A DNA stretch of 64,000 nucleotides from a virus. Positions 21,797-36,057 of the stretch are shown here, piece after piece (within the stretch, counting starts at the first letter, position 1; the number at the start of each line of letters is the position of its first letter). The translations under genes and the position numbers were made by a program. Where the stretch lies: positions 1-64,000 of IMG/VR virus record IMGVR_UViG_3300046170_000519; one strand, written 5' to 3'. The notes beneath the pieces were generated by a model. It saw nothing but the letters and a program-made list of their open reading frames with translations, searched no databases and had not been told where the DNA came from.

Positions 21797-22509
21797 AATA
21801 TATCTTGTTTTTTAATCACTTGTTTTGCAATAATTTTAAATTGTTTTTCTGCATTTTTAATTTGTTTATAACCTGCAGATCTACCTTTTTCATTAGAGAT
21901 ATACCCTAATTTCTTAGCTATTTCATCATGTGGTAGATGAAGAATATAAAGCATTTCGTAAATTTTAAATTGCTTAGGGGTTAACTTGAGCTCCATAGCT
22001 TCATGCAATCTTTGAGCAGATAAATCTAAATTAAAACCATTAGAACATGTAATTCTATCTTCTTTATCTGTTATTGTGGCTGCCAAATTTATATCAAAAG
22101 AGCTTTTTTTTCCTACAAGCCATTTTTTATATAATGGACATGTTTTATCTTGGAGCCCCGATTTTGTCCAGCTGCAAAAATTTTCATTATCATTATAATT
22201 ATCTTGAGCTCCAGAAGAATTAAATGGACATTGAACACAGGGTTTAACAAAATTTCCATAATAATTTCTTAATAAATTTTTAAGCTGATTAGATATGATT
22301 CTATTCAACCATGGCTTCATAGGGCGTTTTTGATCCCACAAAGACCATTTTTTTTCAATATGCACTAATATTATTGACTTTATATCTTCCCACGATATCC
22401 AGCTAATGGCATTTAGAAACCACTTACCCCTCCTTTTCTCTACACAGGCTTCTACTTCTTCAAAACTCTCAATAAATGTTATTTTTCTAGGTCGTCCCCT
22501 CTTCTTCAT
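21793..22509 (-). CDS. Sigma-70-like transcription factor with an inserted Cys cluster
   Basis: A 238-aa protein from ATG 22509. It starts with a GRPRK AT-hook. A region-2-like part (WEDIKSIILVHIEKKW, then RPMKPWLNRIISNQLKN) and a region-4-like HTH (LTPKQFKIYEMLYI, then HDEIAKKLGY) match the sigma-70 layout. Between them four Cys (CVQC ... C ... C, about residues 89-130) form a probable zinc site not usual in sigma factors. It likely directs polymerase to late promoters. An in-frame TTG upstream is less likely. Confidence 0.7.
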   Translation of the reverse strand: MKKRGRPRKITFIESFEEVEACVEKRRGKWFLNAISWISWEDIKSIILVHIEKKWSLWDQKRPMKPWLNRIISNQLKNLLRNYYGNFVKPCVQCPFNSSGAQDNYNDNENFCSWTKSGLQDKTCPLYKKWLVGKKSSFDINLAATITDKEDRITCSNGFNLDLSAQRLHEAMELKLTPKQFKIYEMLYILHLPHDEIAKKLGYISNEKGRSAGYKQIKNAEKQFKIIAKQVIKKQDIL

Positions 22510-22768
22510 TCTGTTTTGGCCCAAATATCTCCTCAGCCGAGAATGTTTTTCTTTGCATCGGGGAGACTGTGTAATTTAACTTTCTAATATTTGGGACAAA
22601 ATTAGAATCACTCTCAAAATCATTAAGCTCTTCACTAATTTCTACACTATTGCTTATGTTTTTTGAACTCGTAGCGCTGAAGTTTCCACCACAAAAACTA
22701 CAGAACTTTGGCTCAATTCCAAGGTATTGATTTTTTTTACCACATTTTTTGCAATATTTGTAGCTCAT
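22487..22768 (-). CDS. Zinc-ribbon protein
   Basis: A 93-aa protein with two CxxC pairs at the N-terminus (CKKCGKKNQY, then FCSFCGG), spaced as a zinc ribbon. The rest is acidic and probably disordered. It overlaps the sigma-like gene and is coupled upstream by ATGA, so it may cooperate with that factor in late transcription. That link is inferred. Confidence 0.65.
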   Translation of the reverse strand: MSYKYCKKCGKKNQYLGIEPKFCSFCGGNFSATSSKNISNSVEISEELNDFESDSNFVPNIRKLNYTVSPMQRKTFSAEEIFGPKQNEEEGTT

Positions 22769-25173: not shown

Positions 25174-25250
25174 CCTAAGTGACTGAATAACAAGCACTTA
25201 GAGCGCGGCGCTGCCGCGTGACCTAAGTACTTAATAAACAACAACTTACG
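25174..25250. repeat. Stem-loop cassette copy A
   Basis: Palindromic arm CCTAAGTGACTG / CAAGCACTTAG (25174-25201), GC core GCGCGGC-GCT-GCCGCG that folds on itself, and a second arm CCTAAGTACTT ... ACTTAC (25222-25250). It starts 10 bp after the stop of the upstream operon. Confidence 0.85.
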
Positions 25251-25329
25251 AAAGTCTCGTACAGAAATCATGCCAATTCATGTAATAGAATAATGCAATA
25301 AAATAGTTGCCAAATAATTCAAAATAAAT

Positions 25330-25358
25330 TTGACTTTAGTTAATAGATGCTTTAGTTT
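25330..25358 (+). promoter_or_regulatory. Early promoter, leaderless type
   Basis: TTGACT, 17 bp, TAGTTT, then 6 nt to the ATG at 25365. Confidence 0.85.
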
Positions 25359-25364
25359 ATATAT

Positions 25365-25715
25365 ATGAAATCAATATACAATACAGACACAGAAGAATTT
25401 ACTTTTAACTTTTTAATGAGCATCGAGGGTGCAACTTATAGAATCGAAGCCGTAGCTTGTCAAGATGACATCTTGCTGAGCGAACAATATCGTCCCGAAT
25501 ATATCGACGTTTATATGGCTAAATTAATAAATGACAAAACAGGTGAATTTATAGAATCAAGCATCTATAAAAACACAGATCTTTTAAAGGTTGTGAGCGA
25601 CAAGCTCACAGAAAGGCTAATTACAAATGCAAGCAAAACTTGGTTTGTTACTGATGCGCCAAGGCTTTTCCGTGAGCAATTCGACACTTGCCTTGAAATA
25701 ATGTTTCAAAAATAA
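25365..25715 (+). CDS. Early hypothetical protein, 116 aa
   Basis: An acidic alpha/beta protein with no recognised family. It has its own leaderless-type promoter; the next gene also has one, so it is a single-gene unit. Confidence 0.65.
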   Translation: MKSIYNTDTEEFTFNFLMSIEGATYRIEAVACQDDILLSEQYRPEYIDVYMAKLINDKTGEFIESSIYKNTDLLKVVSDKLTERLITNASKTWFVTDAPRLFREQFDTCLEIMFQK

Positions 25716-25727
25716 TTCAAAATAAAT

Positions 25728-25756
25728 TTGACAAAAGTTAAAAAATAGACGATAGT
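25728..25756 (+). promoter_or_regulatory. Early promoter, near-leaderless
   Basis: TTGACA, 17 bp, GATAGT, then 5 nt to the ATG at 25762. The -10 is weaker than in the sister promoters. Confidence 0.65.
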
Positions 25757-25761
25757 AAGGT

Positions 25762-26097
25762 ATGACAGAAATAAAAATAGAATTCGACGAAGTAAACAAT
25801 GAAGAGTTTTCCGCCTATGCTGAAGTAGGCGAGGAATACTACGAACTGCAAGGCACAACATGGACAGATGAGCAAGAGTCTCTTTATGGAGATCAAGTCT
25901 CAGCCGTTCACTTAGTGGCTTACTTTGATACTCTTGAAAGCGTGAAGCGCTTCGATGGCAACGGCAAACAAATTGATTCAATGAACTTGGATCTTATCAA
26001 AGCAATTAAAAAAGAACTTAATAAAAACATGGATGAAGAGATAGGATCACACTCTTGCCGTGTTGACTACTCGCCACAATACTACGACCTAATCTAA
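25762..26097 (+). CDS. Early hypothetical protein, 111 aa
   Basis: A very acidic protein (many Glu, Asp, Tyr), beginning MTEIKIEFDEVNN. High negative charge is common in phage DNA-mimic or inhibitor proteins, but there is no specific evidence. It is followed after 2 nt by a 57-aa gene. Confidence 0.65.
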   Translation: MTEIKIEFDEVNNEEFSAYAEVGEEYYELQGTTWTDEQESLYGDQVSAVHLVAYFDTLESVKRFDGNGKQIDSMNLDLIKAIKKELNKNMDEEIGSHSCRVDYSPQYYDLI

Positions 26098-26099
26098 TC

Positions 26100-26273
26100 A
26101 TGGAATACATAAAAAACACGATCAACAAATTAAGAACTCAAATCATGGCATTGAATAGCGAAAGAATCAAGGCAATGAAATTGAACAATAAAAAGAAGGC
26201 TTCAGACATTGAAGCTATACAAATAGAATTAGACAATCAAATAGCACGATTGGAAGGTCTCGCACACCGATAA
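26100..26273 (+). CDS. 57-aa coiled-coil protein
   Basis: It reads MEYIKNTINKLRTQ and continues as a charged heptad-like helix to the end. The ATG is 2 nt past the previous stop, so it is probably translated by re-initiation. No family is recognised. Confidence 0.55.
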   Translation: MEYIKNTINKLRTQIMALNSERIKAMKLNNKKKASDIEAIQIELDNQIARLEGLAHR

Positions 26274-26282
26274 GATCAGCCC

Positions 26283-26357
26283 CCTAAGTTACTGATAACC
26301 AAGCACTTAGGTCAGGGCGCCGCGCTGCGCTGTAAGTGCTTAATAAGCAACTACTTA
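26283..26357. repeat. Stem-loop cassette copy B
   Basis: First arm CCTAAGTTACTG / CAAGCACTTAGG (26283-26311), GC core around GGGCGCCGCGCTGCGC, second arm TAAGTGCTTA / ACTACTTA (about 26333-26357). It lies 10 bp after the upstream stop, as in copy A. Confidence 0.85.
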
Positions 26358-26477
26358 TATAACTCCATAAATCTAGTTTAAAATTGCATAATCCCGCCAC
26401 CACTAAAAAGTTGCACTATTTGACTATTTGGTATTTAAATAAAAAAACAAAAAAAATGAAAATAAATCCGTATTTGC

Positions 26478-26506
26478 TTGCAAAACACGCACTACTAGTT
26501 TACCTT
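26478..26506 (+). promoter_or_regulatory. Early promoter, leaderless type
   Basis: TTGCAA, 17 bp, TACCTT, then 6 nt to the ATG at 26513. It fixes the start of the next gene. Confidence 0.8.
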
Positions 26507-26512
26507 GTTTTT

Positions 26513-26746
26513 ATGGATAAGATCAGAATCAATCATGTAATCGGAGTCAATGGACTTCTTGAATTTTCACGCGACGAAAAGTCGGGCATATCCCTGTGGG
26601 AAGATGTTGCAAATAATGTTTGGACTTGGGATCAAATAGTCGAAGCATCTAAAGATGTAACAAATAAAGAAATCATCGACGCCATGAAAGTAGATGGACA
26701 CATCACTGAGCCATGCGTAAATGATCTTTTAAATATACTAAAATAA
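26513..26746 (+). CDS. Early hypothetical protein, 77 aa
   Basis: Starts MDKIRINHVIGVNG at ATG 26513, placed exactly at the predicted transcription start. The open frame extends 43 codons upstream from a TTG, but that part spans the promoter and is not coding. It is a small acidic protein with Trp-rich middle (LWEDVANNVWTWDQ). Unknown function. Confidence 0.65.
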   Translation: MDKIRINHVIGVNGLLEFSRDEKSGISLWEDVANNVWTWDQIVEASKDVTNKEIIDAMKVDGHITEPCVNDLLNILK

Positions 26747-26749
26747 AAT

Positions 26750-26778
26750 TTGCAATTATATCATAACTCGTTTACCTT
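26750..26778 (+). promoter_or_regulatory. Early promoter, leaderless type
   Basis: TTGCAA, 17 bp, TACCTT, then 6 nt to the ATG at 26785. Confidence 0.85.
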
Positions 26779-26784
26779 ATATAT

Positions 26785-27033
26785 ATGAAAGCTAATACAG
26801 ACACCATCTCAATCGTTGACCTAATCGAAAACGAATCATATAAAAATCACCAAGCTTACAACTTAGCAAAAGCTCTCTTGGACATTGCGGTTCAAGCAAG
26901 ATCCATAAAAAACACAGTTTCAGAAAACATTTCAGGCGATGGAAAAGTGTTCAATGAAAATGTTGATAAATGGATGACCGAAATCAACAACATTGCAAAC
27001 AATGTGGTAAGGGAAGAAATGTTAACCAAATAA
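26785..27033 (+). CDS. Early hypothetical protein, 82 aa
   Basis: A helical acidic protein of unknown family with its own leaderless-type promoter. It is followed after 14 nt by a gene with a normal AAGGAGGG ribosome site, so the operon mixes leaderless and standard initiation. Confidence 0.65.
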   Translation: MKANTDTISIVDLIENESYKNHQAYNLAKALLDIAVQARSIKNTVSENISGDGKVFNENVDKWMTEINNIANNVVREEMLTK

Positions 27034-27047
27034 GGAGGGAATAAAAT

Positions 27048-27236
27048 ATGAATAAACAACAAATACTAGAAAAAATTTCCGCCCTTCACGAAAAACTCAA
27101 GAACTCTGTTCTTGCTCCTGCTGATGCCGTTGCTATCCGCAATGAAATCGGAGAGCTTGAGGATAAGGTCTCTCTTCTCGACTTTTACAACGACGAAGGG
27201 GATTATGATTATGGCTACCACTCCCAATGGGAGTAA
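27048..27236 (+). CDS. Hypothetical coiled-coil protein, 62 aa
   Basis: Preceded by AAGGAGGG 9 nt before the ATG. The N-terminal two thirds are an amphipathic helix (ILEKISALHEKLKNSVL), the tail is Asp/Tyr-rich. Last gene of the rightward block; its stop overlaps cassette C. Confidence 0.6.
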   Translation: MNKQQILEKISALHEKLKNSVLAPADAVAIRNEIGELEDKVSLLDFYNDEGDYDYGYHSQWE

Positions 27237-27310
27237 GCCTTTGATAATCAACTACTTACATCGCCGCGCAGCCAAGCACCTAAGTGCTTGGCAGTCAACA
27301 ACTTACTCTT
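27233..27310. repeat. Stem-loop cassette copy C, at a convergent junction
   Basis: First arm GTAAGCCTTTGATAA / TCAACTACTTAC (27233-27259), GC core TCGCCGCGCAGCC, second part CACCTAAGTGCTTGGCAGTC / AACTTAC. It overlaps the stop codons of both converging genes, so it probably acts as a two-way terminator. Confidence 0.8.
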
Positions 27311-27527
27311 CTAGTAGCCATGCATCGAGAGCTTCTGTGTCGATGTCTGGGTCATCATATTGAGCCCCATCAGGTGTGGACTCGAATCCATATTCAACTT
27401 TAAGATGTTCAACTAAATCTTTATAATATGCAAACCTGCGAGATAAAAAATAAAGATGTTCATCATTCCCTAACCAAAGAGCAACATTCCAGGTCGCCCA
27501 GTTTTTCCAGCCGTTGTAAGTATCCAT
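27303..27527 (-). CDS. DUF7249-like phage protein
   Basis: A 74-aa protein beginning DTYNGWKNWATWNVALWLGN, which matches the YNGW.N..TWNV.LW pattern common in many phages (DUF7249 as I recall). Function unknown. It starts 3 nt after the upstream stop and is probably coupled. Confidence 0.75.
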   Translation of the reverse strand: MDTYNGWKNWATWNVALWLGNDEHLYFLSRRFAYYKDLVEHLKVEYGFESTPDGAQYDDPDIDTEALDAWLLEE

Positions 27528-27530
27528 AAT

Positions 27531-27716
27531 TTAATAAACGAGTTGTGAGTTAATAGCTAATTGATCAATCATATCTTGAATATGTTCTTTTTCATTTTCT
27601 GCATTGATTACTAACTGCATCGAGTTAATACAACCTTGATCTGCGGCATCTGTCTCATTGTTAATAATCTGCTGAAGTTCGTTAATTCTGTTAAATAAAT
27701 CTTTTAATGTTTCCAT
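27531..27716 (-). CDS. Early hypothetical protein, 61 aa
   Basis: A small acidic helical protein (ETLKDLFNRINELQQII). First gene of a leftward operon with a leaderless-type promoter. No family is recognised. Confidence 0.65.
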   Translation of the reverse strand: METLKDLFNRINELQQIINNETDAADQGCINSMQLVINAENEKEHIQDMIDQLAINSQLVY

Positions 27717-27722
27717 GATAGT

Positions 27723-27751
27723 AAGATAATTAAAAATAGAAATAATTGCAA
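27723..27751 (-). promoter_or_regulatory. Early promoter, leaderless type
   Basis: TTGCAA, 17 bp, TATCTT, then 6 nt to the ATG at 27716. Confidence 0.85.
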
Positions 27752-27759
27752 GAAAAAAA

Positions 27760-27966
27760 TTAAAATTTTAATGCTTTTAGCGATGTGTTTCTTTTTAACC
27801 ATCTACGCAATGGGTGAAATGCTCTTGCACTAAAATGAGCGAGATACTGCTCTCCGTTTTTGGCAAGGATCATATGCCCGCTTGCAGTTTCACGGATCTT
27901 TTCGATTTCAGGGCATTTCCGTAATTGTTTTAACACTTTGCGAGTTCCACTTTCTGAATGTTTCAT
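27760..27966 (-). CDS. Small basic protein, possibly HicA-like
   Basis: A 68-aa protein with RKVLKQLRKCPEI, then GHMILAKNGEQYLAHFSARAFHPLRRW, recalling the G-H and S-x-x-xxHP pattern of HicA-type RNA-binding domains. The resemblance is weak. It is driven by a promoter 25 bp from stem-loop cassette D. Confidence 0.55.
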   Translation of the reverse strand: MKHSESGTRKVLKQLRKCPEIEKIRETASGHMILAKNGEQYLAHFSARAFHPLRRWLKRNTSLKALKF

Positions 27967-27972
27967 AAGTAC

Positions 27973-28001
27973 AAGCTAAAGCAAAAAATAAAAATACACA
28001 A
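27973..28001 (-). promoter_or_regulatory. Early promoter, leaderless type
   Basis: TTGTGT, 17 bp, TAGCTT, then 6 nt to the ATG at 27966. Confidence 0.75.
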
Positions 28002-28026
28002 GAAAAAAGTGAATAAAAATGCTTTC

Positions 28027-28102
28027 GTAAGTCTTTGATTATAAAGCTTTTAAGGGTTAACGCAGCCGACTGCCCTAAGTGCTTGATAATCAACTACTTA
28101 GG
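28027..28102. repeat. Stem-loop cassette copy D
   Basis: Right palindrome CCTAAGTGCTTGA / TCAACTACTTAGG (28074-28102), GC core GCAGCCGACTGC, left palindrome GTAAGTCTTTGA / AAGCTTTTAAGG (28027-28055). Its left end is 25 bp from the -35 of the next promoter. Confidence 0.9.
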
Positions 28103-28180
28103 ACAGCCACACATGCAGACTACGACAACTAATACGACTAAAAAATTATTTGCGAGTTTTCGTATTTGCTATTTTTAGTT

Positions 28181-28237
28181 TTAATCTTTTGTATATATAT
28201 ATAATAGTATTGACAAGATAATAATTATTGGAATCAT
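28181..28237 (-). CDS. 18-aa hydrophobic micropeptide
   Basis: MIPIIIILSILLYIYTKD, one membrane segment. Its ATG overlaps the stop of the preceding 25-aa micro-gene (ATGA). Clearly similar to the peptide at 25114-25164. It is the last reading frame before cassette D. Confidence 0.45.
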   Translation of the reverse strand: MIPIIIILSILLYIYTKD

Positions 28238-28311
28238 TCTTCTTTTAAATCTTGCCACATTAAGTAAAAAACAAAAAGCCAAGGAGTGAAAAATAATAAT
28301 TCAACTATCAT
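28234..28311 (-). CDS. 25-aa membrane micropeptide
   Basis: MIVELLFFTPWLFVFYLMWQ plus a short acidic tail: a single membrane helix. The ATG overlaps the end of the 87-aa gene by 11 nt and its stop overlaps the next micro-gene, so three frames are linked by overlap. Confidence 0.45.
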   Translation of the reverse strand: MIVELLFFTPWLFVFYLMWQDLKEE

Positions 28312-28564
28312 AATATATTCCTTTCATTTCATCGGATAATCCGATTTCTTCATCTTCCTCATCAACATCTTCAGCGACATCAGTAAGTAAGAATTGAGTT
28401 TCATCTGTAATGTCATCTCTCTCGACATCTTTTAATCCATGCTCGACAACTAATTGTTCTGCTTGTAAGTCTGCGACTAATTCTAATACTGAGGAATCAG
28501 TTGGCAAACCTTTGGATTCACGATGTGCGTTAGCGATAACTGCGAGTCTTTGTTCTTCTGTCAT
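28301..28564 (-). CDS. Early hypothetical acidic protein, 87 aa
   Basis: A highly acidic helical protein with its own leaderless-type promoter. No family is recognised. It leads an operon that ends in two membrane micropeptides. Confidence 0.6.
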   Translation of the reverse strand: MTEEQRLAVIANAHRESKGLPTDSSVLELVADLQAEQLVVEHGLKDVERDDITDETQFLLTDVAEDVDEEDEEIGLSDEMKGIYYDS

Positions 28565-28570
28565 AGTAAT

Positions 28571-28599
28571 AATATAGTTTAGTTTTGTTTAGTCGTCAA
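28571..28599 (-). promoter_or_regulatory. Early promoter, leaderless type
   Basis: TTGACG (inside the end of the upstream gene), 17 bp, TATATT, then 6 nt to the ATG at 28564. Confidence 0.85.
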
Positions 28600-28984
28600 G
28601 CCCTAATTCTCTTCTAAATTCTGCTTTGTCTTCAATTAGCTCATCAACCCAAACGCTTCCTTCGACTTGAGCTTTTGCCATTAGGATAGATACTTGAGCA
28701 GGAGATTGCCAACCGACAACATCATCAGAAGGAGAAAGAGGAATCATGCCGTTTTTATCGTAGATTGCAACTTCGTACAAACCTTCTTTTAAGCTTCCAT
28801 ATAATCCTTTATAGTCATCTTTACCTGCAATAACAGAAATTTCTAGTCCGTTGCCAAAGTCAAGTTTTGCATGGACTGCTTCATCATGATAACGATGTGG
28901 TTTAAAATCAAGATCGTCAAAGTCTAGCATTGAAGGTTTTGGTTGAAATTGTGAGATTGAGTTTGGTATGTCGTAGTTAATCAT
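28589..28984 (-). CDS. Conserved phage hypothetical protein, 131 aa
   Basis: Contains HDEAVHAKLDFGNGLEISV, YEVAIYDKNG and DDVVGWQSPAQVSILMAKAQ, an arrangement I recall from many phage early regions (A-x-xDFGNG-x-S ... DDV-x-G). Function unknown. Leaderless-type promoter with cassette E upstream. Confidence 0.7.
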   Translation of the reverse strand: MINYDIPNSISQFQPKPSMLDFDDLDFKPHRYHDEAVHAKLDFGNGLEISVIAGKDDYKGLYGSLKEGLYEVAIYDKNGMIPLSPSDDVVGWQSPAQVSILMAKAQVEGSVWVDELIEDKAEFRRELGLDD

Positions 28985-28990
28985 ATAAAC

Positions 28991-29019
28991 ACATTAAACT
29001 CTTTTAACAATTAACGCAA
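28991..29019 (-). promoter_or_regulatory. Early promoter, leaderless type
   Basis: TTGCGT, 17 bp, TAATGT, then 6 nt to the ATG at 28984. Confidence 0.85.
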
Positions 29020-29045
29020 GAAAAAACTTAAATAAAAATGCTTTC

Positions 29046-29120
29046 GTAAGTCGTTAACTGTTAGGCAGTTAGCTTTGGCGGCAGCCAGCCACCTAAGTGA
29101 TTGACTATAAAGGATTTACC
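29046..29120. repeat. Stem-loop cassette copy E
   Basis: Right arm ACCTAAGTGATTGA / AAGGATTTACC (29091-29120), GC core GGCGGCAGCCAGCC, left arm GTAAGTCGTTAAC / GGCAGTTAGC (29046-29073). It starts at the stop of the upstream gene and ends 26 bp from the next -35. Confidence 0.9.
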
Positions 29121-29323
29121 TATCTTAATACTGTTGTCAACTCATTTTGAAATTTTTTTGCTTCAACTAAATCTTTTAAGTCAAAACTAATTGCAACAAG
29201 ATTGTCGTTAATATTCTTCATTACCTTGACAAGGTCGTCCATGTTTGCATAACGTCTATGCTCTAACATCTCATCTGATAATCCGTCAATGGCTTGTTTA
29301 ATTCCTTTTAATTCTTCTTTCAT
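29120..29323 (-). CDS. Hypothetical helical protein, 67 aa
   Basis: A short helical protein (KEELKGIKQAIDGLSDEML) resembling structural coiled-coil pieces; no family is recognised. The start follows the previous stop as TAAAATG. It ends at cassette E. Confidence 0.6.
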   Translation of the reverse strand: MKEELKGIKQAIDGLSDEMLEHRRYANMDDLVKVMKNINDNLVAISFDLKDLVEAKKFQNELTTVLR

Positions 29324-29324
29324 T

Positions 29325-29480
29325 TTAATGTTTACCTTTCTTTATAAAATTTTCTAAATAATATGCAACCCACTCAATAGCTTCATTTTGTTTTGATGCC
29401 TCCTCTTTCATTTCAGGATCGTCAATAACGTTTTGATTGGCTAGGTCTAATACAATTTCTAATGCTGTTGTGATATTCAT
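29325..29480 (-). CDS. Hypothetical protein, 51 aa
   Basis: Reads MNITTALEIVLDLANQ and continues as an acidic helical protein. The ATG overlaps the upstream stop as ATGA, and the next gene follows after one base, so three genes are linked. No family is recognised. Confidence 0.6.
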   Translation of the reverse strand: MNITTALEIVLDLANQNVIDDPEMKEEASKQNEAIEWVAYYLENFIKKGKH

Positions 29481-29890
29481 GATATATAAGCTGTTACTTT
29501 GTTGTGTGTTAATAAAACTTCGTCCGCATAGTACGCAAACCTTTCGGTGTCCTTCTCAACGAAAGTTTCATACTTGTAGGGATTGTACGTTACCTCGACT
29601 TCCCTAGTGGCAACTTGTGGATTACGAGATACATTTTCTGCATCTTGAAGATACCCTTTGACAAAAGCATGAACATTCTTACGCTTCTCTCGAAGAACTT
29701 TTTCTCTGCCCTTAATATCGACATGAAAATAGCAATCCCATAATCCAATAGCATGATCCTTTGGGATATGAGCTTTGACTAATCCATGTTGCTTAATGCT
29801 CCAACAATCTTTGTGAAGATTCTTGTAAACATAAACAGGGCGATTCTTTTTAATTCTATATCGTGGGTCTTGCTGGTTTCTTAGTATCAT
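29477..29890 (-). CDS. Early hypothetical basic protein, 137 aa
   Basis: A basic beta-rich protein (RPVYVYKNLHKDCWSIKQHG; VEVTYNPYKYETFV). The VYKNLHKxCWS pattern is seen in small phage proteins of unknown role. Leads an operon with a leaderless-type promoter and cassette F upstream. Confidence 0.65.
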   Translation of the reverse strand: MILRNQQDPRYRIKKNRPVYVYKNLHKDCWSIKQHGLVKAHIPKDHAIGLWDCYFHVDIKGREKVLREKRKNVHAFVKGYLQDAENVSRNPQVATREVEVTYNPYKYETFVEKDTERFAYYADEVLLTHNKVTAYIS

Positions 29891-29896
29891 GTAGAC

Positions 29897-29925
29897 ATAC
29901 TAAGCCATTTTTTTAATTATAGCAA
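29897..29925 (-). promoter_or_regulatory. Early promoter, leaderless type
   Basis: TTGCTA, 17 bp, TAGTAT, then 6 nt to the ATG at 29890. Confidence 0.85.
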
Positions 29926-29950
29926 GAAAAAAGTTTAGTAATTTTACTTA

Positions 29951-30025
29951 CCTAAGTATCTTGTATTCAAGTACTTATGTTTTTGCGCAGCCGCCGCCAC
30001 AAGTGCTTGATAATCAAGGCTTTAG
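29951..30025. repeat. Stem-loop cassette copy F
   Basis: Right arm ACAAGTGCTTGATAA / TCAAGGCTTTAG (about 29999-30025, overlapping the upstream stop), GC core GCGCAGCCGCCGCC, left arm CCTAAGTATCTTG / CAAGTACTTATG (29951-29979). Its left end is 25 bp from the next -35. Confidence 0.9.
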
Positions 30026-30201
30026 TACCCTAACCACTCAAGAACTTTTTGGGCTGAGTACCCTTCCTTGTCACCCATGTCTTCAAAAAATTCAATAATT
30101 TCCTCACTGGAAGTAATGCCGTGCCTGGCTAATTCCTCTAAGGCACGATCTTGTGAAATGTCAATTCCTTGGGCTGAGTCAAAATAAGTTTCTTCATTCA
30201 T
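30022..30201 (-). CDS. Hypothetical acidic protein, 59 aa
   Basis: Reads MNEETYFDSAQGIDISQD, then helical acidic sequence ending EWLGY. It starts 15 nt after the GP88-like gene. The stop overlaps cassette F. No family is recognised. Confidence 0.6.
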   Translation of the reverse strand: MNEETYFDSAQGIDISQDRALEELARHGITSSEEIIEFFEDMGDKEGYSAQKVLEWLGY

Positions 30202-30216
30202 GGCTTTAATTATAGA

Positions 30217-30942
30217 TTAATGAGCTAAATATGCAATACCTTTTTTGCATCCTTTGATAAAACATAAGTTGCAATTATGAGCTTTACAAGTTGCAAGAAC
30301 CTTGCCGTCTTCGCCCTTAACATAAGTTGCGGGGCAAACAAAATGACCATCTTGCTCGGCTTGCTCTTTTGAGCTATAGACGGAAGTTCCCGCATCTAGA
30401 CCATCGATTTGTGGAGCGGGTTCATCAACATACAAGGCACTTGGTTTTAAGCATACATTCTTTAAACTTGCGAGCTTGCGAAGTGAAGGTAATTGACTAT
30501 CCCTTGCCCACTCACGAGTTGGAAACCAAAAGCGAATGGTGGGAAAGTTTTCGCAAATCTTAATCCACGCCTCAATATACTTTGGGGAAAACAAGTCGCC
30601 TGAATCATGAACGCGAAAAAGATCTGTGTTGACATTCTTTAAAACTTTTTTGTTGCCTTGCTTGTCAAAATACTTTGCGGTAATTTGCTTGGATATCTCA
30701 TTTACAAAAGTTTGCCCATTGTCTCGATGCAAAGACTTGGTGACAAAATTTGCCTTGTCTTGCAAACTTTGTTTAACATTGTTAAACATATAAAAACCTT
30801 TGCAAGCATAACAAGCATCACAAATAAACTTTTTTGCTTTGTCTTTGACTTTTGCCATAAGTTGAGCTGCTGGGCAATACTTGAAAGCGGGAATGTTAAA
30901 GCCTAAGCAAGGCATTTTAGAAGGATTTGATAGTAAGTTCAT
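30217..30942 (-). CDS. GP88-like phage protein
   Basis: A 241-aa Cys-rich protein. CDACYACKG, then FRVHDSGDLFSPKYIEAWI, FWFPTREWARDSQLP and C-terminal CKAHNCNLCFIKGCKKG match the pattern of the GP88 family of phage proteins, whose Cys clusters suggest a metal or iron-sulfur site. The biochemical role is not known to me. Leaderless-type promoter. Confidence 0.75.
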   Translation of the reverse strand: MNLLSNPSKMPCLGFNIPAFKYCPAAQLMAKVKDKAKKFICDACYACKGFYMFNNVKQSLQDKANFVTKSLHRDNGQTFVNEISKQITAKYFDKQGNKKVLKNVNTDLFRVHDSGDLFSPKYIEAWIKICENFPTIRFWFPTREWARDSQLPSLRKLASLKNVCLKPSALYVDEPAPQIDGLDAGTSVYSSKEQAEQDGHFVCPATYVKGEDGKVLATCKAHNCNLCFIKGCKKGIAYLAH

Positions 30943-30948
30943 AATAGT

Positions 30949-30977
30949 AAACTAAAATAATTTTAACAATTATGCAA
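30949..30977 (-). promoter_or_regulatory. Early promoter, leaderless type
   Basis: TTGCAT, 17 bp, TAGTTT, then 6 nt to the ATG at 30942. The -35 lies in the end of the upstream gene. Confidence 0.85.
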
Positions 30978-31170
30978 GCGAAAAAATAAGATCTTCAAAG
31001 AAATCTGGTTCTAAGCCGAATTCGCTGGTAAATGTCTCTTCCCATTCAAACGGATCTCCGCCCATTGCAATGTCTTCAGACATTTCACGAAAAAAGGTTG
31101 CGGTTTGGTGAATAGCATCTTCACGGGAAAGCCCGTCACGCTCCATAAGTATCTTGATTATTCTTTTCAT
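30970..31170 (-). CDS. Conserved small phage protein, 66 aa
   Basis: Contains ERDGLSREDAIHQTATFFREM and FGLEPDFFEDLI, matching a small conserved phage family (GLS-x-E-A ... GLEPDY-x-xDL) of unknown function. A single-gene unit with its own promoter and cassette G upstream. Confidence 0.7.
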   Translation of the reverse strand: MKRIIKILMERDGLSREDAIHQTATFFREMSEDIAMGGDPFEWEETFTSEFGLEPDFFEDLIFSLA

Positions 31171-31176
31171 GATAAC

Positions 31177-31205
31177 AATATCTCACAAAAAATAATTTAA
31201 CGCAA
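31177..31205 (-). promoter_or_regulatory. Early promoter, leaderless type
   Basis: TTGCGT, 17 bp, GATATT, then 6 nt to the ATG at 31170. Confidence 0.8.
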
Positions 31206-31230
31206 GAAAAAATGAATTAAAAATACATCC

Positions 31231-31305
31231 GTAAACCCTTGATGCTTAAGCAGTTAGCTCGCGCCGCAGCCGCTTCCATAAGTGCTTAATAATCAAATAC
31301 TTGTG
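31231..31305. repeat. Stem-loop cassette copy G
   Basis: Right arm CATAAGTGCTTAATAA / TCAAATACTTGTG (31277-31305), GC core CGCGCCGCAGCCGC, left arm GTAAACCCTTGA / AAGCAGTTAG (31231-31257). Its left end is 25 bp from the next -35. Confidence 0.9.
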
Positions 31306-31323
31306 AAACACTAAATCAACCCA

Positions 31324-31350
31324 AAAAAAAAGCCCCCCAATCGGGGGGCT
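31324..31350 (-). terminator. Strong terminator after the DUF932-like gene
   Basis: On the minus strand an 8-bp stem AGCCCCCC / GGGGGGCT with a 4-nt loop is followed by eight T. It lies 24 bp past the stop codon. Confidence 0.93.
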
Positions 31351-31373
31351 AAAACGAAACAACAAACCAATAT

Positions 31374-32246
31374 TTAAACCTCTATCAATTCGCCCTCAGC
31401 AACTTCTATGTCAATAGTATTATCAACATGATTATCTATATCGAAATCGACATAACTATCGAGAACAGAATGAAGAGCGTCTGAACGATTTGGCAAGGCA
31501 ACTAAGTTACCTTTATAAATTTCAGTAAAAGCATTATAGAGAGAATTTACATTACGATCCTTAAATTCTAAATGGTCACTTGACTCCCATTGATCTGCCA
31601 CATCAAGAATTTTTGACTTAGGTAAAGCCCCTGCACGAACTGCTTTGATGATTAAATCATGAGCAAGAACATTCCCGATAGAATGATTTTTATAAGCATT
31701 GATTCTTTCATCTTGTCCATGCCAAAAGCCAAACAATTTACCCAAAGCACGATTGATCATAAAATCAAGATCGTTAAGTATGTTGCGAGTATGTCTACGA
31801 GCAAGTTTAATAGTGTTTGTGAAAATTAAATTATCGCAAACAAATGGAGCATCACCTGCGCAAAGTCCTGCAGGAAAAGTTTTGTCATGAGAATTGCGAA
31901 CTCCTACGACACAACCACGATCTGATTCGTCACGATCAGGATGATCAACAGAGAATAGACCAAAGTAATGTTGGTTATCTCTAGCGAGAGAATGTAATTC
32001 GTCTTGAATAGTAAACCCTCTCTTGACAAGAGAATCTTTAGTACGAACAACAAGCTCGTCATGAGCAATGGGCTGATGAGAAACGGCAAGCTCACCTGTT
32101 CTCTTGTTTGGTTTGTTGCGCATTGTAGGTAATGGAGTTGGTACTGCTTGTACTTGATCAAAATCTACGATTGTGCGATTGCCTCCACAAATGTGTAAAT
32201 CTACGGATTTGCGAGGAGCGGTATTAGTGTTTTCTTCTGTATTCAT
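31374..32246 (-). CDS. DUF932-like early protein
   Basis: A 290-aa protein with CVVGVRNSHDKTFPAGLCAG and PFVCDNLIFTN, the signature of DUF932-type phage/plasmid proteins. Function unknown; such genes are often early and highly expressed. It has its own leaderless-type promoter and a strong terminator, so it is transcribed alone. Confidence 0.78.
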   Translation of the reverse strand: MNTEENTNTAPRKSVDLHICGGNRTIVDFDQVQAVPTPLPTMRNKPNKRTGELAVSHQPIAHDELVVRTKDSLVKRGFTIQDELHSLARDNQHYFGLFSVDHPDRDESDRGCVVGVRNSHDKTFPAGLCAGDAPFVCDNLIFTNTIKLARRHTRNILNDLDFMINRALGKLFGFWHGQDERINAYKNHSIGNVLAHDLIIKAVRAGALPKSKILDVADQWESSDHLEFKDRNVNSLYNAFTEIYKGNLVALPNRSDALHSVLDSYVDFDIDNHVDNTIDIEVAEGELIEV

Positions 32247-32252
32247 GATAGT

Positions 32253-32281
32253 AATATAATAGTTTTAATGTTTTTTGTCAA
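32253..32281 (-). promoter_or_regulatory. Early promoter, leaderless type
   Basis: TTGACA, 17 bp, TATATT, then 6 nt to the ATG at 32246. Confidence 0.9.
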
Positions 32282-32284
32282 GAG

Positions 32285-32518
32285 TTAATTTTTAGAATAT
32301 TGGTTTTCTTCTGAGGTTAGCATTTCAAATGCATAAGCTTTTTTAGCTATATCTCGTAAGGCTAAACCAACCCAACTAATTTCATCTAAATCTTCTACGG
32401 AAAGATTTTTAGCATGAGGTGTTACTAGAATATCCCAAATGGATTTCATGCAATCTTTGTTTAGCTCTAAAGAGTTGAAATCGGGCAACTCATCCACATT
32501 TTGTTTAATTACATACAT
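32285..32518 (-). CDS. Hypothetical acidic protein, 77 aa
   Basis: An acidic helical protein of unknown family. A clear CAAGGAGAA ribosome site precedes its ATG; that site lies inside the upstream 42-aa frame, which overlaps it by 14 nt. Confidence 0.65.
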   Translation of the reverse strand: MYVIKQNVDELPDFNSLELNKDCMKSIWDILVTPHAKNLSVEDLDEISWVGLALRDIAKKAYAFEMLTSEENQYSKN

Positions 32519-32633
32519 AGTTTAGATTCTCCTTGTGTTTTAGTTTTCTGTGTATCGTTTTAGTTTTGACTTTGTGAGGTCTTGATTTAGTGAAAAGAAT
32601 GGTTTTTCTGATCTTAATGTCTCTCGCTTTCAT
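32505..32633 (-). CDS. 42-aa very basic protein
   Basis: Reads MKARDIKIRKTILFTKSRP and continues Lys/Arg/His-rich to the stop. The ATG sits exactly at the predicted start site of a leaderless-type promoter. It could be a nucleic-acid-binding peptide, or a leader frame for the next gene. Confidence 0.6.
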   Translation of the reverse strand: MKARDIKIRKTILFTKSRPHKVKTKTIHRKLKHKENLNYVCN

Positions 32634-32639
32634 GTAAAC

Positions 32640-32668
32640 ATACTAAGCTAATTTTTTAATTATAGCAA
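32640..32668 (-). promoter_or_regulatory. Early promoter, leaderless type
   Basis: TTGCTA, 17 bp, TAGTAT, then 6 nt to the ATG at 32633. Confidence 0.85.
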
Positions 32669-32701
32669 GAAAAATAACAAATAATTTTAACTTTTTTAAT
32701 T

Positions 32702-32770
32702 CCTTGTGTATCAAGCACTTAGAGCGCGCGGCAGCCAGCCACATAAGTGACTGATAATCAAAAGGTTATG
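32702..32770. repeat. Stem-loop cassette copy H (shortened)
   Basis: Right arm CATAAGTGACTGA / AAAAGGTTATG (32742-32770), GC core GCGCGCGGCAGCCAGCC, left arm only partly kept (TTGTGTATCAAGCACTTAG). The distance to the next -35 is about 33 bp instead of 25. Confidence 0.8.
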
Positions 32771-32927
32771 ATCTACCTGAATAAAGCTTATATAATAGAT
32801 TGTCGTGCATCGCTCTTTTTTCCTTATAATCTTTCGATTGGTCCCCCGCTTGCTCTCTAATGGCTAGCATGTGACCTAATTTTCTTACAATTTGCTTTAA
32901 GGTTAAGACTTCTTTATTTTTTTTCAT
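32766..32927 (-). CDS. Hypothetical basic protein, 53 aa
   Basis: Reads MKKNKEVLTLKQIVRKLGHM and continues as a charged helix. It starts 3 nt past the upstream stop; its own stop lies in cassette H. No family is recognised. Confidence 0.6.
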   Translation of the reverse strand: MKKNKEVLTLKQIVRKLGHMLAIREQAGDQSKDYKEKRAMHDNLLYKLYSGRS

Positions 32928-32929
32928 AA

Positions 32930-33160
32930 TTAGATTTTATTAAGAGATATAATTTGGTCGTATCGAAAGGATCGTATGCCGTCCCTATTTAGACAAAAAG
33001 ATCTAAAGCCAACAACCCCCCTTCCTTCTTGTTGATTGCCAAACTCATTTTCGTGCTGAGGTTTGGTTATTGTGTACATTTCAGTTCTGCCGTCTTTAGT
33101 CTGATAAACAACTTGATATAACGGATTAAACCAACGATAAATTTTAGTCAATAATTTCAT
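32930..33160 (-). CDS. Hypothetical basic protein, 76 aa
   Basis: ATG 33160 (MKLLTKIYRW) was chosen because GAGAGG lies 9 nt before it; the open frame extends further into the upstream gene. A small beta-rich basic protein (VVYQTKDGRTEMYTI) of unknown function. Confidence 0.55.
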   Translation of the reverse strand: MKLLTKIYRWFNPLYQVVYQTKDGRTEMYTITKPQHENEFGNQQEGRGVVGFRSFCLNRDGIRSFRYDQIISLNKI

Positions 33161-33389
33161 CTTCGACATCCTCTCTTGCGGGGTTTTGGTTGTAGTGATT
33201 GTAAGCATCGCAAGCTGAATCTGCCGACTCGAAACTCACGGATAGAATATCTCTTGGAATATCGTACGGAAACCAAGGTGTTTCTGATTCTTCAAAAAAT
33301 AATTCCCATTGCTCAGTATCTTCGTTGTATTCAGGTAAATCTAGCGGACTGCCGATGCAGGTTGCTTCTATGTAATTATTCATTTTCAT
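33144..33389 (-). CDS. Hypothetical acidic protein, 81 aa
   Basis: An acidic protein with an aromatic middle (WELFFEESETPWFPYD). It overlaps both neighbours by 14-17 nt. No family is recognised. Confidence 0.6.
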   Translation of the reverse strand: MKMNNYIEATCIGSPLDLPEYNEDTEQWELFFEESETPWFPYDIPRDILSVSFESADSACDAYNHYNQNPAREDVEDEIID

Positions 33390-33588
33390 TATCCTCTATG
33401 TTATAGACTCCGAAGTGAGACGCAAGCTCTAAAATCATTTTATCTTTGTTAAAATAACGATAGGCAAAAGAAAGTAAATCCTCTTGTTGTTTTCTCGTAT
33501 GCCCATCTCTAAGTTCATCATAAATCTCAAAGATATTCATGTTCCAATTCCAACTCTCTACTCTCGCTTCTACTTGTGATGCTGTCAT
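33376..33588 (-). CDS. Hypothetical protein, 70 aa
   Basis: A mixed-charge helical protein (RVESWNWNMNIFEIYDELR). The start shares its A with the upstream stop (TAATG-type overlap). Unknown family. Confidence 0.6.
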   Translation of the reverse strand: MTASQVEARVESWNWNMNIFEIYDELRDGHTRKQQEDLLSFAYRYFNKDKMILELASHFGVYNIEDNENE

Positions 33589-33803
33589 TATACTGCCCTT
33601 TCGTTTACTTGTTCTAACATAAGTTTAAATTGATCAAAAACTTTTTGCTTGCTACCTTTGAGACCAAACTCTTGTTTGATGATAGAATAGCAAGATCTGC
33701 CTCGACTCATTTGCATACCTAAAGTCTCAAGCCTTAAACCTCTGAGAAGAGTTTTGTAGCGAAACATTTCGATTTGTTCGGGTGTGTCTAATACTGCTGT
33801 CAT
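33588..33803 (-). CDS. Conserved small phage protein, 71 aa
   Basis: IEMFRYKTLLRGLRLETLGM then SRGRSCYSIIKQEFGLKGSK matches a small conserved phage family I recall (L-x-LE-x-xGM ... RGRS-x-x-x-IK). Probably a compact helical protein; function unknown. AAGGAAAA ribosome site. Confidence 0.7.
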   Translation of the reverse strand: MTAVLDTPEQIEMFRYKTLLRGLRLETLGMQMSRGRSCYSIIKQEFGLKGSKQKVFDQFKLMLEQVNERAV

Positions 33804-33816
33804 AATTTTCCTTGTG

Positions 33817-34041
33817 TTATAGTTGTGCTGATTGAAAAGATGATTCTATTCTACGTTCATCTTGTAATGCTGTCAAGTCCCTAATGATATCTTCTAAAGA
33901 TTCATCCTCCGATTGGAATGAGCTACCCTTCGGGAACTTGTCAGGGTGGCGTTCGCATTGGTCGAGACAAACTGTTGACATGGGATCCGACCATGCGAGG
34001 TTGCCTCTAACGATATCCATAATTGATTCTGATAATGTCAT
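33817..34041 (-). CDS. Hypothetical acidic protein, 74 aa
   Basis: Starts at ATG 34041 (MTLSESIMDIVRG), which overlaps the stop of the preceding 55-aa gene as ATGA. A longer frame upstream in the same phase is Arg/Lys-rich and lies inside the 55-aa gene, so it was rejected. Contains CLDQCERHPDKFPKG. Unknown family. Confidence 0.6.
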   Translation of the reverse strand: MTLSESIMDIVRGNLAWSDPMSTVCLDQCERHPDKFPKGSSFQSEDESLEDIIRDLTALQDERRIESSFQSAQL

Positions 34042-34205
34042 TGTTTTGCCCTTTCGTTTTGGTCGTCTACAATCTTTGCGAGGCGAAGTAATTCTTGGGT
34101 TACTTCTGCTTTTGCGGTGTTGTTTGCTTGTGGGCTTTTCAACACCTCGACCATAACAGGAACGAGTGCTGACCATGTTGGTGTGATATCTATTGTTTCT
34201 TGCAT
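34038..34205 (-). CDS. 55-aa early protein
   Basis: Reads MQETIDITPTWSALVPVMVE and continues helical (VTQELLRLAKIVDDQNERAK). The ATG lies exactly 6 nt after the -10 of a consensus promoter. Unknown family; small helical proteins of this look are frequent early phage products. Confidence 0.65.
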   Translation of the reverse strand: MQETIDITPTWSALVPVMVEVLKSPQANNTAKAEVTQELLRLAKIVDDQNERAKQ

Positions 34206-34211
34206 ATAAAC

Positions 34212-34240
34212 ACACTAAGGGAATTTTTAGTTGCTGTCAA
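34212..34240 (-). promoter_or_regulatory. Early promoter, leaderless type
   Basis: TTGACA, 17 bp, TAGTGT, then 6 nt to the ATG at 34205. Confidence 0.88.
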
Positions 34241-34265
34241 ATAAAAAGAAAATAAAAATGCTTTT

Positions 34266-34340
34266 GTAAGTTGTTGAATTTTAAGCAGTTAGGGTTTATC
34301 GCAGCGCTCCGCTTTAAGTGCTTGACTATCAACACTTTAT
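34266..34340. repeat. Stem-loop cassette copy I
   Basis: Right arm TTTAAGTGCTTGACTA / TCAACACTTTA (about 34312-34340), GC core TCGCAGCGCTCCGC, left arm GTAAGTTGTTGA / AAGCAGTTAGG (34266-34293). Its left end is 25 bp from the next -35. Last copy toward the right. Confidence 0.88.
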
Positions 34341-35035: not shown

Positions 35036-35343
35036 GAGTGTTCAGAGGAAATTGGTGTGGGGAGGGATTACTGTATACCCTCAAGTTTTCGGCGTGAACA
35101 TCAGTTCATGGTGTACCTACTTCCAACCACAAATTAGACATGGTATTTGTCATCGGCTCATTCGATTGAACTCTACCGCCCCACCACAGGGAATTTGCAT
35201 ACCTTAACCCGCTCACGACAGGTTTATTCGGTCACCCACAGGAAGGATTATAAGCCCTTCCAAAGTGATAAAAAATATTAAAGAACAAAAATTTTGAGGC
35301 TATTTTATTTATTTGAGTCGCCTCTTCTCAATCATGGATGATA
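34991..35343 (-). ncRNA. Stand-alone structured noncoding RNA, about 340 nt
   Basis: There is no open frame in this interval, which is richer in G+C than its surroundings. It begins at the predicted start site of a consensus promoter (35350-35378) and ends at a 13-bp terminator stem. Internal pairing is extensive: GGAAGG / CCTTCC (near 35259), GTGGGGAGG / CCGCCCCAC joining about 35054 and 35195, TGAAC / GTTCA, and ACAAAT / ATTTGT. It does not match tmRNA, 6S, RNase P or group I intron landmarks that I know. The class is unidentified. Confidence 0.75.
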
Positions 35344-35349
35344 CTTACT

Positions 35350-35378
35350 ATAATACTAAAAAAATTACCTTTTGTCAA
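35350..35378 (-). promoter_or_regulatory. Consensus promoter of the noncoding RNA gene
   Basis: TTGACA, 17 bp, TATTAT, located in the last codons of the glycosyltransferase gene. No start codon follows; transcription should begin near 35343. Confidence 0.9.
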
Positions 35379-36057
35379 CTATTAAATGGTTTCTATCAAA
35401 TATAATTGTATTTTCATCGATTAGTTTTTTATACTTTATTTCCTTTTTAAAATCTTCGAGTAATAAAAATTTGTAACCTAATTTAGATTCTTCTTTTGTT
35501 CTGTAAGCATGATATTCACTTTCCACTATAGGCAAGCTTCTGCACATCAATGCTTCATAAAATCTGAAACTCCAAGTAGCATCACCTGCTGGACACAGGC
35601 AGTATTTACTTTGACACATTATTTGAAGATATTCTTTATCATTTTCTAAGGGGTTGTATCTTAAATTTTGCAAATCTTTAGTGAGGGTGCGATTATTTCT
35701 AGGGTTATATCCTTTACCCGAATTTGTATAATCAAATGAACCTAAACTTTTCCAATTAGGTTCATCATCTGTATTTAAAAAATACGATTTGTTTGTAAAA
35801 TTTTTTTTTGCAAATTCTATAACCCACTGTCTGTTATTTTTAATTCCTTTTGAATTTATTGTCCCCATAAAGCAATAGTCATAAATCTTTTTTCTTGGCA
35901 ATTTGTGGACTTGTTGGTAAAATCTCTTCGAGAATTTAGCTATCGGAGGGTTTGCAACCACATTTTCAGGATTTAACCCCTCTTCCCTTAAAGCTTCTTC
36001 CATCTGATATTTAAACTCTAAATATCCAGAACCTCCTTGAAATTTGCTAGGACTCAT
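35365..36057 (-). CDS. Exostosin-like glycosyltransferase
   Basis: A 230-aa protein with the C-terminal exostosin-type signature: KYCLCPAGDATWSFRFYEAL then CRSLPIVE, where a nucleotide-sugar-binding Glu/Arg pair lies. It would transfer a sugar to a surface or phage product. It is shorter than full exostosins, with only the donor-binding half plus a short N-part. Its ATG overlaps the preceding lipoprotein gene. Confidence 0.68.
   Translation of the reverse strand: MSPSKFQGGSGYLEFKYQMEEALREEGLNPENVVANPPIAKFSKRFYQQVHKLPRKKIYDYCFMGTINSKGIKNNRQWVIEFAKKNFTNKSYFLNTDDEPNWKSLGSFDYTNSGKGYNPRNNRTLTKDLQNLRYNPLENDKEYLQIMCQSKYCLCPAGDATWSFRFYEALMCRSLPIVESEYHAYRTKEESKLGYKFLLLEDFKKEIKYKKLIDENTIIFDRNHLIVDKR

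Follow-up and report, generated by a model that had tools for sequence, protein, structure and literature searches.

One palindromic element is shared between early-gene blocks in a large uncultured group of bacterial viruses

The PeSL cassettes of T4-type phages are repeated intergenic early-promoter elements that are thought to shuffle early genes. Intergenic repeats have also been described in the Campylobacter group II phages CP21 and CP220, where the repeats RR1-RR4 lie between modules that are inverted among related T4-type phages; these are regions of 1-2.9 kb composed of many tandem units, and the modules measure 28-55 kb (PMC4546147). In E. coli, the RIB/RIP (BIME-1) elements combine a pair of inverted REPs with an IHF site that lies between them (Boccard and Prentki 1993, cited in PMC2817692).

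The locus described here lies in the window, the stretch of 64,000 nucleotides at positions 1 to 64,000 of the 206-kb virus record IMGVR_UViG_3300046170_000519. An element of about 75 bp, in all copies laid out as a palindrome, a GC-rich core and a second palindrome, occurs in it nine times, and the nine copies, each with a core of 22-23 bp flanked by two 25-bp palindromes, can be aligned end to end, which bears out an earlier note that had placed nine such elements here. The palindrome pairs start at the first coordinate of each line:

25176..25248, + strand: element A, palindromes 25176-25200 and 25224-25248, GC core 25201-25223
26285..26357, + strand: element B, palindromes 26285-26309 and 26333-26357, core 26310-26332
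27234..27305, + strand: element C, core 27259-27280, convergent genes on either side
28028..28100, + strand: element D, core 28053-28075, ATG 27966 (- strand) 61 bp away
29047..29118, + strand: element E, core 29072-29093, ATG 28984 (- strand) 62 bp away
29953..30024, + strand: element F, core 29978-29999, ATG 29890 (- strand) 62 bp away
31232..31303, + strand: element G, core 31257-31278, ATG 31170 (- strand) 61 bp away
32697..32768, + strand: element H, core 32722-32743, ATG 32633 (- strand) 63 bp away
34267..34339, + strand: element I, core 34292-34314, ATG 34205 (- strand) 61 bp away

A scan of the entire 206-kb record placed the elements at 25.2-34.4 kb and nowhere else. Copy H had been taken to be shortened; its core is normal and neither palindrome is missing, the first one being weaker. 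The outer TAA triplets of element C are the stop codons of the genes at 27048-27236 (+) and 27303-27527 (-), and elements A and B lie upstream of + strand genes at longer and unequal distances.

These copies belong to a large and so far unreported family: 458 elements, 374 of them distinct, were detected in 108 fetched loci, and the pair rule found none in shuffled sequence. At the gathering threshold Rfam returned only manA RNA and one tRNA, with no match at the elements; a DNA similarity search of the region against annotated phages gave no match, and the element consensus gave at most weak partial ones. The perfect palindrome TAAGTCGTTGATNATCAACGACTTA was absent from the bacterial genomes searched, and a looser palindrome was found there in 20 stretches, mostly as a single palindrome without the double element. 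Several of these single palindromes are located in Fibrobacter, and two of the 20 stretches (L081 and L094) lie on short contigs of viral appearance. The terminase could be checked in 42 of 47 records and placed all of these carriers in a single uncultured clade (the Pfam model of T4 gp23 matched nowhere and was uninformative). The element recurs between early-gene blocks of numerous bacterial viruses, which make up one large group without cultured members.

The elements are intergenic, overlapping called genes by at most 15 bp in 379 of 393 cases when genes are called with a simple in-house caller that uses codon usage; a cruder earlier caller had placed many elements in spurious ORFs, which the codon-usage caller removed. 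Among gaps of at least 60 bp, 65 of 82 convergent ones hold an element as against 24 of 89 divergent ones. Relative to the element, stop codons are most frequent from -5 to +15 bp, and start codons rarely lie closer than about 36 bp. The earlier note had described a rigid promoter spacing in five copies; the spacing is real and extends to six, D to I, in which a leaderless start lies 61-63 bp away. It is mostly 61-62 bp in the relatives G005, G006 and G008 and mostly 65-67 bp in G036, G016 and G024, and is looser in more remote relatives and where cassettes are on the + strand. From the element edge to the start, the predicted promoter consists of a CTTGC- or TTGAC-like -35 sequence, about 17 bp, a -10 sequence and the ATG. 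The same predicted leaderless promoters also occur without an element, both inside cassettes and throughout 35-63 kb. The promoter does not appear to be an obligate part of the element: a fixed spacing that would fit the proposed joining of the cassettes to early promoters is seen in copies D-I and close relatives, but if the predictions hold, promoters of this type also work on their own, which counts against the reading favoured below. At the other side, 50 of the 161 cases with room for one have a separate intrinsic terminator after the upstream stop codon and before the element, which makes the element itself an unlikely terminator there, and only 8 of 289 elements contain a hairpin plus T run of the kind an intrinsic terminator would have, read in the direction of the upstream gene. 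One example of each neighbouring signal is:

27967..28027, - strand: leaderless promoter region of the type of copies D-I, predicted from its consensus match
31320..31352, - strand: intrinsic terminator, GC hairpin plus T run, between the gene end at 31374 and element G

What kind of site are the palindromes? In reverse complement, the published IHF consensus WATCARNNNNTTR (verified in print) gives the half-site, YAA-N4-YTGA(TW), and the full 25-bp palindrome reads as two inverted IHF-type sites, YAA-N4-YTGA-TWA-TCAR-N4-TTR. In the window, WATCARNNNNTTR occurs 17.1 times per kb in elements and 0.30 times per kb outside, a 57-fold difference; of the 17 positions that are informative in the double site, at least 15 were matched 14 times where a first-order Markov model predicts 1.4, with 13 of the 14 matches, and all of the top 8, inside elements. 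Over 908 palindromes, WATCARNNNNTTR is perfect in 62% and matched at 8 or more of its 9 positions in 89%. The match extends to positions that the search had left free, since position 8, where it is not T, is almost always C, position 1 is in most such cases C as well, and the palindrome centre is W in 87%. No mirrored positions covary, and the palindromes therefore look like protein sites and not like hairpins; the central positions avoid symmetry and favour exactly one good half (p = 4e-12), which is compatible with a binder that is itself asymmetric. Palindromes are similar in all phages (identity 0.78 within and 0.73 between phages). Since 43 carrier records contained no protein of the HU/IHF family (PF00216), a protein that binds the sites would have to come from the host, and the sites suggest IHF or HU as the candidate. 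The GT at positions 4-5 is conserved beyond what the IHF consensus requires, and on this account the binder could conceivably be another dimeric protein that recognises a similar site. IHF sites usually carry an A-tract on one side; here this side is occupied by the other half of the palindrome, which counts against the IHF reading. An FNR-type site, considered because of TTGAT...ATCAA, was rejected, as FNR sites read TTGAT-N4-ATCAA and the elements have the wrong spacing, TTGA-N3-TCAA.

The core, different from the palindromes, is specific to each phage in length and sequence and almost constant inside one phage: the modal length is found in 87% of the elements of a phage as against 33% expected, and core identity is 0.71 within and 0.49 between phages. 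Its orientation mostly tracks the DNA strand and not gene direction, which disfavours a directional promoter signal. The elements delimit cassettes of 1 to 6 small genes, for example:

28301..28984, - strand: cassette D-E, families 12 and 13, linked in relatives with differing neighbours
29120..29890, - strand: cassette E-F, families 54, 129 and 8, elsewhere in G005 and G006 and bounded by elements there too
30021..31170, - strand: cassette F-G, families 31, 5 and 19, family 5 being Pfam GP88 (30217-30942)
31374..32633, - strand: cassette G-H, families 7 and 20

The comparison of gene content between elements that the earlier note had envisaged shows that cassettes differ in order and strand among related phages, being permuted and sometimes inverted. 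Two genes separated by an element are adjacent in another phage in 28% of comparisons and share a cassette in 6%, whereas for pairs less than 60 bp apart these values are 69% and 79%. Several elements at such junctions look chimeric when compared with the nearest relative. Against G005, the palindrome beside the unchanged gene is more conserved than that on the swapped side at 5 of 6 junctions; overall, conservation is 0.726 on the unchanged and 0.704 on the swapped side (p = 8e-6), a signal that is clear against the nearest relative and small across all pairs, and that loses significance when only the pairs with homologous flanks are taken (p = 0.087). Comparative sequence data support a reshuffling of gene blocks between related viruses at the elements, and with it the earlier idea of gene shuffling.

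Could the same features be explained differently? The palindromes might be an operator pair through which a non-IHF dimeric protein of phage or host, such as an early-gene regulator, controls the early cassettes, the half-site TAAGTNNTTGA being merely IHF-like. Symmetric half-sites with an extra conserved GT, a fixed promoter distance in close relatives and palindromes conserved in all phages would suit such an operator, but its degeneracy falls exactly at the positions that IHF tolerates (Y1, N6-7, Y8 and W13), its centre is asymmetric and not palindromic, and it would be unexpected at convergent gene ends, where the element is so frequent; we consider this reading unlikely. We think it quite improbable that the element is a dedicated target of a site-specific recombinase or transposase that moves the cassettes, be it integron-like attC or REP/BIME with a Y1 transposase. 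Cassettes do travel as units, some of them inverted between elements, and the arrangement of four inverted half-sites in each element is reminiscent of recombinase binding. However, 19 carrier records, which may be incomplete, contained no tyrosine recombinase (PF00589), serine resolvase or Y1 transposase in searches that all matched in control genomes, and the elements diverge from one another more than expected for sites of an active recombinase.

A function as RNA or single-stranded DNA hairpin, that is as PeSL-like stem-loop, stabiliser of mRNA 3' ends, processing site or terminator, appears very improbable to us. It draws on the better folding of several window copies as compared to dinucleotide shuffles (z to -3.9), on the self-complementarity of the cores (0.52 as against 0.37 in shuffled cores) and on the stop codons that frequently adjoin the elements. 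Yet compensatory changes are absent both at mirrored positions and at variable dinucleotides between the outer and inner arms, and both terminator counts speak against it. The double hairpin of the earlier note, whose interpretation is partly supported in that the shuffling holds, is not supported: mirrored positions do not covary and central positions shun symmetry.

We favour, with moderate confidence, the reading of the element as a cassette-boundary DNA element in which IHF/HU-type sites surround a phage-specific core. The palindromes would most likely be bound and sharply bent by a host protein of the IHF/HU family. Placed at the 5' boundary of a cassette of early genes, right behind the stop codon of the gene before it and a set distance from the first promoter of the cassette, the element may act as an insulator or an architectural upstream element when host RNA polymerase transcribes the early genes. 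Because all boundaries of one phage share one core, a crossover inside the element could exchange, move or invert whole cassettes harmlessly, leaving genes and promoters intact, and the same exchange would keep the cores of one phage alike, so that crossovers in the core may underlie both permutation and homogenisation. More tentatively, we suggest as a possibility a two-part identity element, in which a universal part is read by the host DNA-bending protein and a phage-specific core marks the cassette ends, letting phages with matching cores trade cassettes while the early genes are kept behind a host-built nucleoprotein boundary. We know of no described system that combines a universal host-read part with a phage-specific core. 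Such an element would offer a sequence basis for rearranging the fast-evolving early regions of large phages without gene breakage, and it suggests that a whole uncultured phage clade may rely on a host nucleoid protein at each early cassette. With the universal palindrome distinct from the phage-specific core, both ideas can be tested on short synthetic DNA.

How does the element compare with known systems? RIB/RIP elements, as described in PMC2817692, are also short extragenic palindromic repeats with IHF sites at the 3' ends of transcription units, but with a reversed arrangement, for here it is the palindromes that fit the IHF consensus, around a GC-rich middle. Our elements moreover lack REP sequence, are confined to one phage region and have a phage-specific core. 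With REP/BIME they have in common that they are extragenic palindromes, as their intergenic position attests; a Y1 (RAYT) transposase was not encoded in the 19 carriers, though it may act in trans, and for integron attC the encoded tyrosine recombinase is likewise missing from these records. In the oriT of R388-type (IncW) plasmids, IR1 is nearly the same palindrome, AAGTCGTTGAAAATCAACGACTT, and adjoins a GC-rich inverted repeat, but it is a lone palindrome beside the nic site and the relaxase hairpin. The R388 relaxosome is known to include IHF (PMC3264647), and since the IHF site is mapped to IR3 and not to IR1 in a published scheme (PMC4814116), the likeness of IR1 may be due to chance or to an unrecognised IHF site. 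Different from RR1-RR4, a single 75-bp element separates cassettes of 1 kb. With the PeSL cassettes this locus has in common repeated intergenic elements between which gene content or order varies, whereas the elements described here are without a conserved stem-loop, as judged from mirrored covariation, have their promoter outside the repeat, where it also occurs alone, and combine IHF-type sites with a phage-specific GC core.

The window holds nine elements, A to I, between 25.17 and 34.34 kb that can be aligned over their whole length, each composed of two 25-bp imperfect palindromes (TAAGT-NN-TTGA-NNN-TCAA-NN-ACTTA) which flank a GC-rich core of 22-23 bp. This bears out the layout described in the earlier note, as does a search of the entire 206-kb virus record for its statement that no copy lies past 34.4 kb: elements are confined to 25.17-34.34 kb. 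The window has 14 palindrome matches in which at least 15 of 17 positions agree, as compared to 1.4 expected from a first-order Markov background, and 13 of the 14 fall inside elements.

IMG/VR was scanned with the 18-mer TAAGTGCTTGATAATCAA and with a symmetric degenerate palindrome, and elements were detected with a profile built from the nine window copies followed by a palindrome-pair rule, which found none in shuffled sequence. The family comprises 458 elements (374 distinct) in the 108 loci examined. Whole-record searches of 31 carriers, i.e. virus records with elements, gave 5-28 palindromes per record, and the reversed pattern a single chance match across all of them. Since homologues of the window terminase are present in 42 of 47 carrier records (33-85% identity), and the best matches in annotated phages are just 22-25% identical, the element is, as judged from these comparisons, a feature of a single uncultured clade of phages. 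rIIA is present in 17 of the 47 records. Bacterial genomes contain almost no elements; of the 20 bacterial matches to the degenerate palindrome, six come from Fibrobacter (loci L078, L082, L083, L086, L088 and L091), as single and mostly intergenic palindromes.

The earlier note took the palindromes for a double hairpin, and some copies fold more stably than shuffled versions, as palindromes must. However, no mirrored positions covary, and neither do the variable dinucleotides, be it between the outer or between the inner arms; palindromes in which only one side of the centre matches well are even favoured (p = 4e-12). Covariation is what hairpins should show and compensatory maintenance is absent, which speaks against the hairpin reading and argues that sequence rather than fold is conserved. 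The half-site derived from counts, Y-A-A-(G-T-N-N)-Y-T-G-A, is the consensus of the bacterial DNA-bending protein IHF, WATCARNNNNTTR, in reverse complement (given as WATCAANNNNTTR in many papers). Positions 2, 3 and 9 are nearly invariant, and even though conservation is inflated at positions fixed by the patterns through which the loci were collected, the agreement extends to positions that the search left unfixed: substitutions are nearly all to C at position 8 and mostly to C at position 1, and 87% have A or T at the centre. The consensus is perfect in 62% of 908 palindromes and matched at 8 or more of 9 positions in 89%. We therefore infer that IHF or the related bending protein HU binds the palindromes. 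A search of 43 carriers, whose records may be incomplete, revealed no HU/IHF gene, and the binding protein would thus be host-derived.

Different from the palindromes, which are nearly as similar between phages (identity 0.73) as within them (0.78), the cores are phage-specific (0.49 and 0.71, respectively). The modal core length lies between 14 and 33 bp depending on the phage, yet 87% of a phage's elements share it, as opposed to 33% when lengths are dealt at random. Cores have 80% GC (loci overall 40%), are partly self-complementary and are oriented mostly by DNA strand, not by gene direction.

According to genes called with a simple codon-usage method, overlap with a gene does not exceed 15 bp in 379 of 393 elements. 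Among gaps of at least 60 bp, an element occupies 65 of 82 convergent, 290 of 601 tandem and 24 of 89 divergent ones. The edge facing a gene end often lies -5 to +15 bp from the stop codon, and start codons are seldom closer than about 36 bp. An ordinary terminator is found in 50 of 161 stop codon-element gaps with room for one. In copies D-I the distance from element end to ATG is 61-63 bp and includes a predicted sigma-70-like promoter that leaves no room for a leader; it is 61-62 or 65-67 bp in close relatives and more variable in distant ones and in + strand cassettes. The proposed tie to leaderless promoters shows in this spacing; equal promoters without an element, on the other hand, occur inside cassettes and all through 35-63 kb. 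For this reason the element is a marker of cassette ends, not of promoters as such. Many window genes at 25-63 kb are preceded by a sigma-70-like promoter with just a few bases between its -10 and the ATG, which suggests that leaderless early mRNAs are widespread there.

Features in and around the element region
25249-25290: second conserved motif, approximately GTACAGAAATCRTGCCAACT, downstream of an element; similar motifs follow several elements preceding + strand cassettes, also in the related phages G005, G006, G008, G036 and G001, and may be a further regulatory site
31374-32246 (-): family 7 cassette protein, 290 aa, common across the clade; among annotated phages, related only to proteins of Salinibacter phages (28% identity)
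35052-35261 (-): manA RNA motif (Rfam RF01745, 88 bits), just past the last element and upstream of the gene at 35365-36057
35365-36057: gene weakly similar to exostosin-type glycosyltransferases
21793-22524 (-): possible phage sigma factor, encoded in the conserved block adjoining the terminase; its weak sigma-70 region 4 match falls slightly short of the Pfam cut-off

Cassettes were compared in 41 phages over the region upstream of the terminase. As the earlier note had envisaged, gene content and order between elements vary: cassettes are permuted between the window and its nearest relative, G005, the order differs again in G006, G016 and G008, and the family 14 cassette lies on the opposite strand in G002, G011 and G037.

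Cassette order (gene families in braces; letters, window elements)
Window: {12,13} E {54,129,8} F {31,5,19} G {7,20} H {41,25,26,21,22}
G005 (85% terminase identity): {12,13} {31,5,19} {7,20} {54,129,8} {25,26,21,74,22}

Two genes that adjoin an element from opposite sides are adjacent in 28% of comparisons with another phage and lie in one cassette in 6%, as opposed to 69% and 79%, respectively, for neighbours separated by under 60 bp. At junctions where the window and G005 have different adjoining cassettes, the palindrome beside the unchanged gene is the better conserved in five of six cases (for example 0.96 versus 0.72 and 0.92 versus 0.56). All pairs taken together show a small, significant difference (0.726 versus 0.704, p = 8e-6), which does not reach significance among those with homologous flanks (p = 0.087). 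The better conservation of the near palindrome suggests that exchange occurs within the elements. Since searches of 19 carriers, their records possibly incomplete, revealed no tyrosine recombinase, serine recombinase or Y1 transposase, general recombination would be the simpler cause of the shuffling.

To the anatomy, position, permutation and core specificity read from the sequences we add the following model. A host protein of the IHF/HU family would induce DNA bends at both palindromes of each element, and the bent element would act as a boundary in front of each early cassette, with a presumed effect on transcription. Cassettes would be traded through crossovers within the common core, and these same crossovers may be what keeps the cores of one phage alike.

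The PeSL (promoter-stem-loop) cassettes of T4-type phages are likewise linked to early promoters and to the idea of shuffling, but they have a conserved stem-loop, which the present elements lack. CP21-type repeat regions also separate modules (PMC4546147), which are however far larger than the cassettes described here. E. coli RIBs (PMC2817692) resemble the elements in that they combine palindromes with IHF at the 3' ends of transcription units; they differ in containing REP sequences and in the opposite arrangement of their parts. Finally, IR1 of the R388-type oriT holds the same palindrome. The R388 relaxosome includes IHF (PMC3264647), which one published map places at a repeat other than IR1 (PMC4814116). 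In L074 (R7K), L075 (pHH2-227), L073 (BPP5P1) and L084 (Falsochrobactrum ovis), IR1 with its double IHF-type palindrome adjoins the relaxase hairpin, and it is possibly an unrecognised IHF site.
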